From: Terriglobia bacterium
Lineage (GTDB): Bacteria > Acidobacteriota > Terriglobia > Terriglobales > Acidobacteriaceae
Assembly: GCA_020073105.1 (NCBI GenBank)
Contig: JAIQFW010000112.1
Coordinates: forward strand, 6,495-50,176
Direction of reading: 5' to 3'
Length of the DNA: 43,682 bases
This document shows positions 33,070 through 43,569 of the stretch, in pieces. The notes below the pieces were generated by a model. The model was not told the DNA's origin. It was given only the letters and a program-made list of their open reading frames with translations, and did no database searches. A program made the translations under genes and the position numbers. Positions within the stretch are counted from its first letter, which is position 1. Each line of letters starts with the position of its first letter.

Positions 33070-33123
33070 TGACTGACCCCATCCTTTCGCGCTCTTTGCG
33101 ATAGGGTGGGAGAGGACGAATAG

Positions 33124-33206
33124 CACGAAGGTGGCTGGACAGAACCCACTTGCAGGCGTATAAATTGCCCGACTCTGAGGGGGGCCATAGCGTGAGCTAT
33201 GGCCCC
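33124..33206 (+). repeat. Dispersed structured element, copy 1
   Basis: About 83 nt consisting of a conserved leader (CAC-GAA-GGTGGCTGGACAG, then GTATAAATTGCCCGACTC near 33159) and a perfect 11-bp hairpin at 33181-33206 (GGGGCCATAGC, loop GTGA, GCTATGGCCCC). The second copy lies inverted at 43263-43346. Three stem base pairs differ between copies, and in each both sides changed together. Both loops are GNRA. It lies just upstream of the DUF5343-HEPN pair. Confidence 0.75.
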
Positions 33207-33386: not shown

Positions 33387-34022
33387 GTGGCTGACAACTA
33401 CCCCTATCACGTTAACACCGCCAACGTGAAGAAGTTTTTGGATCACGTCCAAACAGCTGGCGTCCCAGACAAGGTGACCTTCAAGTACGTGGAGTCGGTT
33501 GGCTTCAAGAGCAGCAACGACCGTGCCCTTATCACTATCCTGAAATTCATCGGTTTTGTGAGCAGCTCAGGTGCCCCGACCGATGTGTGGCGGGCATACC
33601 GCAACAAGAGCCAGTCTAGGAAAGTGCTCGCTGCTGCCCTACGCAAAGGTTACAGCACCTTGTTCACGACCTACCCAGACGCCAACCGCAAGGACAACGA
33701 GGCACTCCGGAACTTCTTCAGTAGTCATACCAGCGTGTCGGATGGCACCATCAGCTACATGGTGCGTACGTTCAAAACGATCGCTGATATGGCCGATTTT
33801 GGATCACCTGGCGAAGCCATGCCCGAGATAGAAACCAACGATGACGATGAACCGGAAGTGGGGAAGGGCGGCGGTGGCGGCACTGTCGTCAAGCGAAAGC
33901 TGACGGCAGGTACGAATGGGATGACGGTGAACATCAACATTCAGCTTCAGATTCCTGCCACGGACAAGGCTGACATCTACGACAGTTTCTTCGCAGCGAT
34001 GAAAAAGCACCTACTGTCGTGA
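33387..34022 (+). CDS. DUF5343 family protein
   Basis: A 211-residue protein of the DUF5343 family, recognised from YPYHVNTANVKKFLDHVQTAGVP, the winged-helix-like middle (VESVGFKSSNDRALITILKFIGFV), and DAVWRAYRNKSQSR-like text (here PTDVWRAYRNKSQS). A Gly-rich linker (GKGGGGGT) near residue 168 precedes a short C-terminal beta/alpha unit (MTVNINIQLQIPATDKADIYDSFFAAMKKHL). The family has no established function; a DNA-binding or partner-regulating role is plausible. It starts at GTG 33387 with AGGAG upstream, and its stop overlaps the GTG start of the HEPN gene (GTGA), so the two are a coupled pair. Confidence 0.85.
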   Translation: MADNYPYHVNTANVKKFLDHVQTAGVPDKVTFKYVESVGFKSSNDRALITILKFIGFVSSSGAPTDVWRAYRNKSQSRKVLAAALRKGYSTLFTTYPDANRKDNEALRNFFSSHTSVSDGTISYMVRTFKTIADMADFGSPGEAMPEIETNDDDEPEVGKGGGGGTVVKRKLTAGTNGMTVNINIQLQIPATDKADIYDSFFAAMKKHLLS

Positions 34023-34549
34023 ATGAACTGAAACTCCTACTGGCGCAAGCAAGAGCCTTCGAGAAAGACGCGCACGCACTACTCGCGACGCACGAGGCCT
34101 CAGGCTCTCGTGTGGTTGTACTCGAAGAGTCCTACGACAAACTGACCAAGCTCACACTGAAGCAGGACGAACTGTTCCGACAGGCACTCCGCTGTGTCGA
34201 GCACAAGCTGTTCCGAGCGGCTCATGTCCTGGCGTGGGCTGGCTTCATGGACTTGCTGGAGGAGAAGCTTGCGTCGGATGGTTTGGTGAAGCTGCGAGCG
34301 GCCAAGACTGCATGGAAGGCTGGCAGCGTTGAGGAACTTCGCGAGAGCGTGGTCGAATACCAGCTCATCGAAGCCGCCAAGGACTTGGGACTATGCACGA
34401 AGACCGAGATGAAGGCTCTGCATGGGATGCTCAACAAGCGGAACGAGTGCGCACATCCGAATGACTTCTATCCCGATATGAACATCACGCTCGGCTACAT
34501 CTCAGAATTGTTAACGCGCGTTGCCACTCTCCAGACGAAGATGCTCTGA
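34019..34549 (+). CDS. HEPN-like protein paired with DUF5343
   Basis: A 176-residue mostly helical protein. Residues 141-146 are RNECAH, matching the R-X4-H catalytic motif of HEPN ribonucleases, and are preceded by a long helix (EHKLFRAAHVLAWAGFMDLLEEKL) as in HEPN domains. HEPN proteins often act as RNA-cleaving toxins or defence effectors. Here the upstream DUF5343 protein would be the natural regulator or partner because of the 4-bp GTGA overlap. No membrane segment is present. The start is GTG 34019; the nearby ATG is out of frame. Fold assignment is by motif, so moderately sure. Confidence 0.72.
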   Translation: MNELKLLLAQARAFEKDAHALLATHEASGSRVVVLEESYDKLTKLTLKQDELFRQALRCVEHKLFRAAHVLAWAGFMDLLEEKLASDGLVKLRAAKTAWKAGSVEELRESVVEYQLIEAAKDLGLCTKTEMKALHGMLNKRNECAHPNDFYPDMNITLGYISELLTRVATLQTKML

Positions 34550-39773: not shown

Positions 39774-40376
39774 TCAAACCACAACCTTGTGAATCGCCTC
39801 GCAGAGGTCGCTCACAAACTGAATGGCCTGTTCCGCCATTGGGGGATTTATTGGCCATAGGACCCCTGGAAAACTTGGATCAAGGTCTGCTTCATGTGCG
39901 ATCTTGTTTCTCCTTTCTACCAACAACTGAACACGATCCTTTAATGTTTTTGGATCTTCCTTCAACTCGACCGCAACGGCTTTCCACAGTTCCACATTGG
40001 AAAACAACCGGAGTGCATCTGCTACCCTCTCAGGGTTCTGAAAGGACTGAAATCCATGGCGTGTTCGAATCTCGGATTCTAGCTGGCCCGCAGACGTGGT
40101 ACCGCCAATCACGCCCAGCATGCATTCTAGAGACACATCGAAGCGCAAAAACGCTGGGGTCGAAGGGCGTTTCCCGTCGAATACCTCGAGCATTCCGAGC
40201 CTAGTCACCTCGTGAATGTAGTGATCTAACGCGCTGACGATCATCACTACTTCGGCTCTCAGCACATCGGTAAGGTCCACGACGGGAGTGACCATTGACG
40301 AAACACGGAGATAGATGGCGTGGATGTTCCTGACCCGGTCCAGATTTTGCCGGAATTGGTCAATTGCTTGCTGCAT
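39774..40376 (-). CDS. HEPN-domain protein (RiboL-PSP type)
   Basis: A 200-residue helical protein. The beginning (DLTDVLRAEVVMIVSALDHYIHEV, about residues 34-57) and the R-X4-H motif RNKIAH (Arg156-His161) fit the RiboL-PSP HEPN family. HEPN proteins of this kind are predicted RNA endonucleases in toxin-antitoxin and phage-defence loci. ATG 40376 is chosen; TTG 40391 is possible. It overlaps the end of the ParA-like gene by 17 bp, so both are likely made from one transcript. No antitoxin-like small protein is adjacent, so the ATPase may be the regulator. Confidence 0.82.
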   Translation of the reverse strand: MQQAIDQFRQNLDRVRNIHAIYLRVSSMVTPVVDLTDVLRAEVVMIVSALDHYIHEVTRLGMLEVFDGKRPSTPAFLRFDVSLECMLGVIGGTTSAGQLESEIRTRHGFQSFQNPERVADALRLFSNVELWKAVAVELKEDPKTLKDRVQLLVERRNKIAHEADLDPSFPGVLWPINPPMAEQAIQFVSDLCEAIHKVVV

Positions 40377-41418
40377 TGTCGATAATTGCAATGACGCGGT
40401 CGGCGGCTACCGAGAAAAGGTCGTAAAATTTCCTCATCGATTCCTTTGTGCCCTCGAGCACAACTCCCACCTGCTCGAGTTGCGCATCAGAAAGCGCAAA
40501 GACCGGCACTTGGTGTTTTTGAGATTGGGCTATCAGAGAGTTGAAATCGGGCATCTGGAGTAGGGGTTTTTCTGGCAAGAAACCGGCGTGTTCGTAGGCT
40601 TCGGTCGCAAGAACCATGCCCGCTTGACGCAAGGCGGGCAGCAGACGTTTGGCTAGGCCCGTCTCTAGCTGATCGATCCATTGTTGGAATGCTTTTGCGG
40701 GCACATTCTCGCTTCGGGGGCGGTATTTCTGAACAATGCTACCCAAGAATTTTGGAAGGACACTAGGGAAGGGATAGCTTGCCTCCGCTAGTAGAGGCAG
40801 TTGCTGTGCTCGCTGGGCCCAAGCTCTCCACTTTGGGATGATGTTGGCTAGTGAGTCAATACCCATCATGGAAAAGTAGTCTGGATGCATGGGAACGAGA
40901 AAATATTCGCAGGTCATCAGCAGATTCTGGTTTACCGAACCAAGGCTGGGGCTCATATCTACCAGGACGTAATCGATGGAGTATGCTTTCGCAGTCTGCA
41001 AAATTAGATGGCGAATCGATCCCGGCAAGTTTCTGAGCGTGACTAGAGATCCAGACAGCTCCTGCGCAATCCCGAGCGTGACCTCATATTCTGCGAGCCC
41101 AATGTGGCCCGGCAACAAGTAGAGATTCTGATTCCCCGGAATTGACACACACTCTGCGGCGCGAATTGGCTCAGGACGAGACTCGAATGCAGGCGCAAGA
41201 CCATCCCGAATGTTTTTCGGAATACCTGTTCCGACAATAGACTGTAGGTCCTCCAGCTTCTTGAAGCCGAGGACCATTCCCGTCAGATTGCACTGAGGGT
41301 CACAGTCAACCAAGAGCACCCGTTTATCCTTAGTTGCCAGCATCCAGCCCAAATTGAACGCGGTGGTTGTCTTGCTCACGCCACCCTTGTGATTGAACAG
41401 GCAGATTACGGTCGTCAA
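40360..41418 (-). CDS. ParA/MinD-type ATPase
   Basis: A 352-residue SIMIBI ATPase. The deviant Walker A motif is KGGVSKTT (residues 11-18, signature Lys11), VDCDPQCNLTG follows as Walker A', and VLVDMSPSLGSVNQN is the Walker B-like region. The C-terminal part (about 250-350) is longer than a minimal ParA. ParA proteins move plasmids or protein complexes, but no parB or parS candidate is nearby; the neighbours are a HEPN RNase (17-bp overlap) and a deaminase 18 bp upstream. A regulatory or defence ATPase role is therefore as likely as partition. The start is TTG 41418 with AGAGGGGGA upstream. Confidence 0.88.
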   Translation of the reverse strand: MTTVICLFNHKGGVSKTTTAFNLGWMLATKDKRVLLVDCDPQCNLTGMVLGFKKLEDLQSIVGTGIPKNIRDGLAPAFESRPEPIRAAECVSIPGNQNLYLLPGHIGLAEYEVTLGIAQELSGSLVTLRNLPGSIRHLILQTAKAYSIDYVLVDMSPSLGSVNQNLLMTCEYFLVPMHPDYFSMMGIDSLANIIPKWRAWAQRAQQLPLLAEASYPFPSVLPKFLGSIVQKYRPRSENVPAKAFQQWIDQLETGLAKRLLPALRQAGMVLATEAYEHAGFLPEKPLLQMPDFNSLIAQSQKHQVPVFALSDAQLEQVGVVLEGTKESMRKFYDLFSVAADRVIAIIDNAASN

Positions 41419-41436
41419 TTGTCCCCCTCTTAGTTC

Positions 41437-41949
41437 CTATGTGCCCCTCTTTCGCTTTCTCGACTTAAGAATCTTGGGGTCTATGGGTACGAAATCGACA
41501 CCAGCTTCCTCAAACATCGCTAACGAGATTTTCCCCGTTCTGTGGGTGTGAGAACCTGGGTTTCTTTCAGGATCGGGCTTAATTCCGAGGACCCGCGCAA
41601 CACCGGCTTGAATAATGAGCACCGCGCACCTAGGGCAGATCGGCTTCCCATACACATACAAAGCACCCCTCCTAGCACGAGAACCAGAGCAGAGAAGTGT
41701 GTTTTGTTCAGCATGAACGATCATCTCGTTCTTTAGCTTGCCGTCTTTTAGCTTTTCGACGTTGTCTTCAACACCAGCCGGAAATCCATTGTACCCAAGC
41801 GCAATCGGCCAACCCTTCTTGTCCAAGAGAACAGCGCCAACTTTTGCCTTCGGATCTTTCGACCAAAATGATATCCGCTTTGCGAGCAAGAAATAACGGC
41901 GGTCCCACTTATCCGCAGTCTTCTTCTTCATGCTCATGCTTAGCCTCAT
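41437..41949 (-). CDS. Deoxycytidylate deaminase-like zinc enzyme
   Basis: A 170-residue cytidine/deoxycytidylate deaminase-fold protein. The zinc site is His79-Ala-Glu81 (VHAEQN) and Cys105-x2-Cys108 (PICPRCA). The N-terminal RISFWSKDPKAKVGAVLLD and GYNGFPAGVEDN segments are typical of dCMP deaminases, which convert dCMP to dUMP. The C-terminus is basic (KSRKRKRGT). A strong AGGAGGAT ribosome binding site precedes ATG 41949. It heads a three-gene minus-strand run with the ParA ATPase and the HEPN protein. Deaminases that deplete dCTP are known in phage defence, so a defence role is plausible, but a housekeeping dCMP deaminase cannot be excluded. Confidence 0.87.
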   Translation of the reverse strand: MRLSMSMKKKTADKWDRRYFLLAKRISFWSKDPKAKVGAVLLDKKGWPIALGYNGFPAGVEDNVEKLKDGKLKNEMIVHAEQNTLLCSGSRARRGALYVYGKPICPRCAVLIIQAGVARVLGIKPDPERNPGSHTHRTGKISLAMFEEAGVDFVPIDPKILKSRKRKRGT

Positions 41950-42103: not shown

Positions 42104-43030
42104 CTAGGGATTCTGGGCAAACCTATGAATCTCAGCCAATATCGGCTCCTGATGCCAATAGGCTCTTATTGACGTAATCCTGCCTGCCGCATTCACTTCA
42201 ATTATGTCGACACCCTCGAAAGTCAAGCCTCTCCCATTCTTACCACGCACCTTCGCAGTCCACTTGATTGCAGCACTGTCACCAACAACGAAGACATCAT
42301 CCCGGGAGAAGTCGAAACCCTCGCAGGACTCAGCGAGCTTGAGAAAGAAACTGCGTAGTACGGGAAATCCAGCAGGACCTTGATCCGTGCTCGCGGGCGA
42401 TGCTGTGACAGAAACCTCGAACATCGCAGCCCATTGATCAAGCTCCATCGCTTCTAACTTCTCAAAGTAACCCTCAACTGCCCTCTGAACATGTCCACAC
42501 TCAACCCGTGCAGCAGTGTGAACGCGCTTTGGCGTCCATGCGGTGAAGATTGAGACTAAGCCCGGCAACACAATGGCAAGAAACACAAGCCCGGTGGCTA
42601 ATTCATATACGACAATCCGCTGTGAGGCGAAATCGAACGGCGAATAATCGCCGTAACCGAGAGTGCTCAGCGTAACGAGGCTGTAGTAGAAGGCTTCACT
42701 TGGTCTCGACAACGGTGCCCCATGGCCGTAGATGTAGCCAAACCGTAAGTAAAGGACTGCGTATGCAACAATAATTTCGTACATATTTGCTATTGCAAAA
42801 CCAAGACTCCGTCGTGCAGTACGGTCAGTCCACGGTATCCGTTCACTCTTCACAAAAATGAAGTACAAGCGGTAGGTGAGTATATCCAGTATTCGCCACC
42901 CGGCGAAGCCAGCGAGGAAATCACCAACGTGTCCTATTGCACCGTCAGTGAGATTGTAACGAAGCCATGGGAATCCAAAGAGGAGCAGCATCGTCAAGTA
43001 GAAGACGAAGAAAAGGACGTATTTATCCAT
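42104..43030 (-). CDS. K+-channel-like protein with C-terminal NTF2-like domain
   Basis: A 308-residue protein. Hydrophobic segments lie at about 3-23, 35-60, 75-97 and 137-163. The pore loop before the last one carries the potassium selectivity filter TLGYGD (residues 123-128, in VTLSTLGYGDYSPF). The cytosolic part from about 175 to 305 resembles a SnoaL/NTF2-like fold (VQRAVEGYFEKLEAMELDQWAAMFE...FVVGDSAAIKWTAKVRGKNG...VDIIEVNAAGRITSIRAYW). The fusion suggests a ligand- or partner-gated channel, but the NTF2-like domain may also be an enzyme. The start is uncertain: ATG 43030 is conservative, while ATG 43219 would add 63 residues. The frame reaches 43462 only by running through repeats. Confidence 0.8.
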   Translation of the reverse strand: MDKYVLFFVFYLTMLLLFGFPWLRYNLTDGAIGHVGDFLAGFAGWRILDILTYRLYFIFVKSERIPWTDRTARRSLGFAIANMYEIIVAYAVLYLRFGYIYGHGAPLSRPSEAFYYSLVTLSTLGYGDYSPFDFASQRIVVYELATGLVFLAIVLPGLVSIFTAWTPKRVHTAARVECGHVQRAVEGYFEKLEAMELDQWAAMFEVSVTASPASTDQGPAGFPVLRSFFLKLAESCEGFDFSRDDVFVVGDSAAIKWTAKVRGKNGRGLTFEGVDIIEVNAAGRITSIRAYWHQEPILAEIHRFAQNP

Positions 43031-43262
43031 GTTTCTGGTGAAGGCTGATTCTGCCTCTGCAGTCTCGCCCTCTCCTATGAACCATCGCGAGGGTGACACT
43101 GCTTGAGCCAAGACAAAGGAACAGCTCAGTGTCTTGGCAATAGCGGTGCGATTCCCGTCGTGCCAGACTCGTGCTAGCTCCTCGCGTGAGTCGGCGAAGC
43201 ATTTTCTTGGTGCCGTCATGTATATGTGGGCCGTTCTTTGTTTTCTTGGCGCAAGTGCAAAA

Positions 43263-43346
43263 GGGGTCACGGCTTGCGCCGTGACCCCCCTCAGAGTCGG
43301 ACAATTTATACCTCTGTGAGACGGGTTCTGTCTAGCCACTTTTGTG
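43263..43346 (-). repeat. Dispersed structured element, copy 2 (inverted)
   Basis: On the minus strand this matches 33124-33206: CACAAAAGTGGCTAGACAG, then GTATAAATTGTCCGACTC, then an 11-bp hairpin GGGGTCACGGC, loop GCAA, GCCGTGACCCC (43263-43288). One-base indels and scattered substitutions separate the copies in the leader. In the stem the three substituted pairs changed on both sides. Confidence 0.75.
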
Positions 43347-43405
43347 GTATGTGCTTTCTCCCAAGACGAACGGGAGAATACCTTGAAATCGCAGGGAAGC
43401 TGAGC

Positions 43406-43465
43406 TCCCTCGACTTCGCTCGGGATTTCGGCGGCGGGCTCGACGCCCGCCAAGCGCCTCAACTT
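43406..43465 (+). repeat. Dispersed repeat, second copy of the 31575 unit
   Basis: About 60 bases, starting TCCCTCGACTTCGCTCGGGA and ending CGCCTCAACTT, about 88 percent identical to 31575-31635 on the same strand. It includes a GCGGGC...GCCCGC hairpin. Translated on the minus strand it gives RRLAGVEPAAEIPSEVEG, which explains the spurious N-terminal extension of the channel gene. Confidence 0.75.
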
Positions 43466-43569
43466 CGACTTCGCATCCGATTTCGCAAGCGAAACCGGAT
43501 GATTCGTTCAGGATGACAGCAGGAAAGGACGGGTGGCCGACTCAAGCCCGGTCTTGTGTTCAGTCTCAT

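Follow-up and report, generated by a model that had tools for sequence, protein, structure and literature searches.

To our knowledge, the silencing and induction of defence genes have usually been described system by system. Several described arrangements resemble the element reported here in part. In attenuators of the trp and BglG/LicT types, a GC hairpin with a T-tract lies between promoter and gene, and the terminator's first arm has an alternative pairing partner further upstream. In ToxIN-type antitoxin RNA loci, a terminator between the promoter and the defence gene limits expression. Mobile promoters supply unrelated genes with a common promoter-like sequence, and integron gene cassettes combine a short folding element with one gene into a unit that is found in new surroundings. 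A terminator-like hairpin of the form GGGGCC...GCAA...GGCCCC is also present in the BjrC68 small RNA (RF02353). The element occurs twice in the window, by which we mean the whole stretch of 43,682 nucleotides that was analysed. On its sequence features, it is probably a promoter-attenuator leader of approximately 95 bp that travels together with accessory genes, often anti-phage ones, with a predicted promoter, a predicted terminator and putatively regulated read-through.

The two window copies lie where a preliminary description of this DNA had placed them, at 33124-33206 (+) and 43263-43346 (-), and folding reproduced the 11-bp hairpin in both. All three stem pairs that differ between them (C-G/U-A, U-A/C-G and A-U/G-C) remain paired. 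With the first copy as the query, BLAST recovered the second (E 7e-14) and one further copy (G000:C174:1283-1371, E 6e-18), giving three copies in the 5.14 Mb and 308 contigs of this genome. The third copy has the same hairpin sequence as the second, so the covariation at the three pairs represents a single contrast within the genome. The likeness of the two window copies is not due to chance, with two window matches to a 20-nt motif (one with three mismatches) compared to 0.00 expected from 100 shuffles. The features of both copies and the genes behind them are listed in Table 1. The T-tract following the hairpin of the first window copy is weak (TAGCGTTTGG). By eye, extragenic stretches of the TCATCCTGA/TCATTCCGAG...GAGTCGAGGAACC type were seen directly 5' of two of the three copies (window 43382-43520 [-] and L002 1214-1266), and other repeats sit 5' of several copies of the element.

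Table 1. Features of the two window copies of the leader and the genes located behind them
Feature	Position	Strand	Basis or remark
First copy: CAC-GAAG-GTG motif, putative regulator site	33124..33133	+	Sequence; 51-copy conservation profile, columns 5-14; just 5' of the -35-like hexamer; consensus in the family, CAC-NAAA-GTG
First copy: -35-like hexamer TGGACA	33136..33141	+	Sequence; 51-copy alignment
First copy: -10-like hexamer TATAAA	33159..33164	+	Sequence, alignment; 17 nt 3' of the -35-like hexamer
First copy: predicted transcription start	near 33171	+	
First copy: conserved, putatively initially transcribed segment CGACTCTGAGG	33170..33180	+	
First copy: 11-bp terminator-like hairpin GGGGCCATAGC-GTGA-GCTATGGCCCC	33181..33206	+	
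First gene behind first copy: DUF5343 protein	33387..34022	+	PADLOC candidate defence family PDC-M34A, E 2.5e-51
Second gene behind first copy: small protein, at best DUF4145-like	34019..34549	+	PF13643, E 0.071, below cut-off; HEPN label from the earlier sequence reading
Second copy: CAC-AAAA-GTG motif	43337..43346	-	Sequence
Second copy: -35-like hexamer TAGACA	43329..43334	-	Sequence; 18 nt from the -10-like hexamer
Second copy: -10-like hexamer TATAAA	43305..43310	-	Sequence
Second copy: 11-bp hairpin GGGGTCACGGC-GCAA-GCCGTGACCCC, then TTTT	43263..43288	-	
First gene behind second copy: ion channel (Ion_trans_2) with SnoaL-like domain	42104..43219	-	
Genes after the channel gene: dCMP deaminase-like, ParA-like, HEPN_RiboL-PSP	39774-41949	-	ParA-like gene named from sequence

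A covariance model built from the three copies of this genome was used to search 398 genomes from the bacterial family to which it belongs. Many full-length matches were present among the matches listed, as were hairpin-only matches (about model positions 71-107), which were put aside as ordinary terminators. From 42 extracted stretches, eight were excluded by eye (G140, G275, G356, G143, G283, G052, G030 and G139b), as were G139a and G045a, and a second model was built from the resulting 32-copy MAFFT alignment. At E <= 0.001, this model matched 42 of the 398 family genomes, belonging to 13 of 79 genera. In a phylum-wide sample, three of 396 genomes matched, all from the same family (the share of the 396 that lies outside the family is not given), and one of these matches was weak and partial (G163, E 9.9e-4). 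Sixteen carrier genomes had one to four matches each at E <= 0.01, with more candidates scored. The 55 fetched stretches contained 79 matches, comprising 51 copies above 42 bits, seven at 34 to 38 bits and 21 below 29 bits; the latter were mostly reverse-strand hairpins and were not counted. The two window copies are thus members of a larger leader family in one family of Acidobacteriota, and modelling the element and searching related genomes, as the preliminary description had proposed, yielded many more covarying copies.

Searches beyond these genomes returned few sequences. Exact-pattern scans of viral contigs gave one match (L203), which is located inside a phage coding sequence and received no score with the model, and a pattern scan of plasmids gave none. 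With a strict promoter pattern, a scan of the genome collection found L024, which corresponds to the promoter half of G045:C7, and L023, a chance match inside an open reading frame (ORF) that was rejected as a member. A divergent look-alike with CTGGACAG, GTGTATAAATT, a hairpin and TTTTT was seen at L039 1501-1596 (G139:C122), directly 5' of a gene that appears TIR-like by eye. This look-alike may be a distant member or a case of convergence.

The stem of the hairpin is maintained as RNA on the gene strand. In the 32-copy MAFFT alignment, 97.7% of the cells were paired, compared to at most 61.1% with the arms slid, and 16 double-changed cells were found in four of the 11 pairs. Across 58 copies read on the gene strand, 97.3% of the pair cells were paired, with 45 double-changed cells spread over eight of the 11 pairs, although this alignment is model-fitted and leans towards structure. 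Pairing was lower (83.7%) when the stem of the 58 copies was read on the opposite strand, owing to its many G-U pairs. The selection on structure proposed from the window copies was therefore borne out; an absence of pair-preserving changes or a mostly unpaired stem, either of which would have argued against it, was not seen in the 58 copies. The stem is broken in a single copy (L148, 48 bits). The GNRA loops also proposed hold for both window copies (GTGA and GCAA) but are not a trait of the family, in which loop sequences vary and a GNRA loop was present in 16 of 51 copies in a simple fold.

Immediately after the stem, T occupies four successive positions in 46, 48, 45 and 40 of 51 copies, compared to a background T content of 21%. 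The GC hairpin and T-tract on the sense strand look like the marks of an intrinsic terminator. Alternatively, the hairpin could protect the mRNA at its 5' end or insulate the translation start, with no role in termination. Strong stems close to 5' ends stabilize mRNAs, and the predicted 5' end is about 10 nt away from the hairpin; the weak T-tract of the window copy would also fit such a role. However, both the T-tract conserved across the family and the apparent co-evolution of the 5' segment with the first arm of the hairpin would be superfluous for protection, and we regard this explanation as rather improbable.

Upstream of the hairpin, the conserved blocks follow a fixed order in the model-aligned copies: CAC-NAAA-GTG, 2 to 3 nt (48 of 51 copies), a hexamer, 17 nt (45/51), and TANNAA or TAGATA. 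The -35-like hexamers include TATGTA, TGGCAT, TAGCAA, TTGCAT, TGGACA and TAGACA. In this model-fitted alignment, the distance between the -35-like and -10-like hexamers is 16 to 18 nt in 50 of 51 copies and exactly 17 nt in 45. The first T and the A of the -10-like hexamer are conserved in 51 and 50 of the 51 copies, respectively. On average, the two hexamers match the consensus at 2.9 and 3.5 of six letters, and the best promoter match reached 7.63 of 12 letters, compared to 6.88 in shuffles. As a yardstick, nine of 11 lexA hits from ten family genomes are preceded by TTGAC with a -10-like hexamer 16 to 18 nt away. Overall, the leader half resembles a weak promoter of the sigma-70 type. A sigma-54 promoter was rejected, as GG-N10-GC occurs in five of 51 copies.

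The CAC/GTG block could itself be read as a mini-hairpin, as 93.8% of its cells are paired. Because it is almost invariant and the next outer pair is often mismatched (by eye), it was taken as a DNA motif instead. Control by LexA as part of the SOS response was also considered. CAC-N4-GTG was found upstream of lexA in none of the 11 hits from ten family genomes, and as the motif upstream of lexA differs from that of the element, SOS control was put aside. A direct repeat, TTCGC-N6-TTCGC, is located 5' of lexA in all ten of these genomes (10/11 hits; L180-L189) and is a likely LexA box of this bacterial family.

The copy at G045:C7 (L016 1493-1620) consists of the promoter half without the hairpin. 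It precedes a gene with a weak HEPN match and is adjoined by a divergent kinase-like gene. As this copy retains the promoter half alone, the promoter and hairpin halves are separable.

In many copies, CGACTGTGA, a segment between the promoter-like half and the hairpin, can pair with the hairpin's first arm (TCACGG). In the first window copy, the corresponding segment (33170..33180) does not form this antiterminator-like pairing, which is seen in relatives. Among the 32 copies, 87.8% of the antiterminator-like cells were paired and five were double-changed, while one pair was broken in 11 of the 32. The covariation score of the pairing (0.076) was exceeded by three of six slid controls (0.083 to 0.131), which weakens the case for an antiterminator. 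In a swap test on 57 copies (L155 was left out), however, segments paired with their own partners at -6.28 kcal/mol, compared to -5.27 kcal/mol with swapped partners (standard deviation [SD], 0.15; 300 swaps). Likewise, the 38 distinct combinations gave -6.16 and -5.00 kcal/mol, respectively (SD, 0.20), and none of 500 swaps was as good. Shared ancestry is still contained in both the swap and the covariation scores. The pairing is much weaker than that of the terminator and fails in the window copies and some others. The covariation of the 5' segment with the first arm of the putative terminator is therefore suggestive of an antiterminator but not more, given the poor pairing in the window copies and the relatedness of the sequences compared.

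The same stretch could be explained at the level of DNA, as an operator, with a repressor that recognizes a GTGA-N5-TCAC palindrome spanning the transcription start and a hairpin that is merely a by-product. Indeed, many copies contain a GTGA-GGGGG-TCAC dyad. However, the arms diversify across the family (GTGA/TCAC, ATGA/TCAT, GACC/GGTC and GGGA/TCCC) and stay complementary, unlike a fixed protein-binding site, and wobble pairs in the long stem disrupt the symmetry of the DNA. An operator is a very unlikely explanation. The four arm types are among those seen for the antiterminator-like pairing.

The element has a prevailing direction with respect to its neighbours. Strand and orientation agree with those of the nearest ORF downstream in 49 of 58 cases, compared to 31 of 56 for the nearest upstream ORF. 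The ORFs were called by a crude method, which for the window copy at 33120 selected a spurious, oppositely oriented ORF as the downstream one. Of 50 chosen ORF starts, 24 are no more than 60 nt and 41 no more than 200 nt away from the hairpin. In the close cases, little space is left for a second promoter, and the gene would have to be read through the hairpin. The element is a directional 5' leader. What had been described as a dispersed 83-nt element is indeed dispersed, but it is better defined as such a leader with two separable halves.

This arrangement bears on two further explanations. The element could be a small-RNA gene, whose promoter and terminator would yield a trans-acting RNA of about 45 nt, with neighbouring genes transcribed by incidental read-through or from other promoters. 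A promoter-like block directly followed by a terminator-like hairpin with a T-tract is what such a gene would look like, but neither the fixed orientation and closeness of the next gene nor the preservation of one leader-gene unit across different surroundings would be expected, and we consider a small-RNA gene unlikely. Alternatively, the element could be a selfish or mobile repeat (REPIN- or MITE-like) that is intergenic by happenstance. Its dispersal in multiple copies and the other repeats 5' of several of them would agree with this. In contrast, one orientation to the downstream gene prevails, the promoter-like spacing is conserved, matches number at most four per genome and the pairing is specific to the RNA strand, which makes a mobile repeat highly improbable.

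The leader-gene unit referred to above is that of an EVE gene in three genomes of the genus g29 (G301, G315 and G339). From about 13 nt 5' of the element through the stop codon, approximately 84% of positions match. Beyond this unit, similarity between the fetched flanks is confined to short repeat-like stretches and, in G301, to a second element. The EVE gene and its leader are therefore conserved as a unit in otherwise different surroundings in three genomes. Two genome pairs, G144/G049 and G006/G351, have shared contexts, as expected from vertical descent.

The first genes behind the leader are diverse. Among 40 of them, Pfam identified OLD-like and other AAA ATPases, TIR with ATPase, PHP-ATPase and AAA_13. 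Mrr, Z1, C5 methyltransferase, EVE, dCTP deaminase-like, SIR2, ThiF, DuOB and HD/dGTPase-like proteins were also identified. Genes other than defence genes (PEGA, phosphoesterase, TPR and DUF4136) were present too, and ten of the 40 gave no Pfam match at E <= 0.01. Pfam families in the control were mostly housekeeping (25 of 62 listed). In single PADLOC scans, 20 of 30 first genes matched at E <= 1e-5 and ten did not, a share that overstates the contribution of defence, as the 30 proteins were hand-picked from 58, leaving out PEGA, phosphoesterase, kinase and several unknown genes, among others; three of the 30 are located behind copies that score just 34 to 37 bits. At the same threshold, neither the channel gene behind the second copy nor the first gene behind the third copy in the window's own genome matched PADLOC.

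All 58 first genes together matched 244 PADLOC models, compared to 87 for 58 of 172 random ORFs drawn from family genomes carrying matches; these totals count models rather than proteins and are inflated by proteins with multiple matches (at E <= 1e-5, L124 with 99, L158 with 75, L142 with 67 and L127 with 62), and in the control apparently by one HsdS gene. Overall, the association with accessory loci suggested by the window copies extends across the family, with diverse and often defence-like first genes. A PEGA-type secreted protein is encoded behind the leader in three genomes (L106 6050-6775, L108 5934-6659 and L113 6080-6805; Pfam identification on the L106 copy only), and the leader is thus not exclusive to defence genes.

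The favoured reading, a promoter joined to an attenuator, would operate as follows. Transcription would be directed by a sigma-70-type promoter, with the CAC-NAAA-GTG site abutting the -35 hexamer, and would start within the conserved segment CGACTGTG. Some 10 nt past the start, the polymerase would transcribe the strong GC hairpin and T-tract as an intrinsic terminator, and by default most transcripts would end at a length of roughly 45 nt. Many copies offer an alternative, in which the segment transcribed first would pair with the terminator's first arm and give a weak, antiterminator-like hairpin that encloses a G-rich loop. Whenever this antiterminator or another antitermination event prevailed, read-through would extend into the accessory gene, which usually starts within 200 nt. 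The family suggests that many unrelated, often anti-phage genes have one built-in, off-by-default switch in common.

An extension of this model, which we consider doubtful, is that the switch senses infection, with the start-proximal terminator keeping unrelated anti-phage genes off until an invader alters the host RNA polymerase. The trigger could be, for example, an antitermination factor made by the phage or a loss of termination in general. If so, defence genes would be read through just when a phage commandeers transcription.

In the titles and abstract openings covered by a literature search, no prior description of the leader family was found. The preliminary description had recognized no named RNA or repeat family in the element, and Rfam 15 gave no match at gathering score over the element in the window. 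Nine further loci gave three Rfam 15 matches, all to Acido-Lenti-1 RNA (RF01687) and none over an element. These three, above gathering score, are at L106 4912-4958, L106 7029-7075 and L129 11630-11674 (all on the minus strand), the second of them about 150 nt 5' of a leader copy. The leader family, which had no Rfam 15 match at gathering score in the window and these nine loci, most likely represents a promoter with a start-proximal attenuator. It may be common to OLD-like, Mrr-like, SIR2, PHP-ATPase, methyltransferase, EVE, E1-like, DUF5343 and other genes, which would make a shared induction mechanism directly testable. Furthermore, it provides a sequence handle for new defence genes in this family of Acidobacteriota.

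Compared with the known systems, the element resembles each in part. BjrC68 was rejected, as its best score was 29.4 bits compared to a gathering score of 39 and the match covers mainly the terminator hairpin; the first stem of the BjrC68 model falls into a gap in two own-genome copies, and the third matches it only in part. At E <= 10, BjrC68 also matched 11 of 14 control genomes. Whereas integron cassettes share the short folding element, the element reported here lies 5' of its gene and is promoter-like, and both the R' and R'' core motifs of an attC site were found in one of 51 copies only, which did not support an origin from integrons. In contrast to ToxIN-type loci, there is one hairpin, with no tandem RNA repeats seen, and the downstream proteins are unrelated. 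Unlike trp-, BglG- or LicT-type attenuators, a single leader family heads many unrelated genes, and as the putative terminator is only about 10 nt from the predicted start, there is no space for a leader peptide. Finally, unlike mobile promoters, the promoter-like sequence is joined to a terminator-like hairpin, often precedes defence-like genes and stays with its gene.
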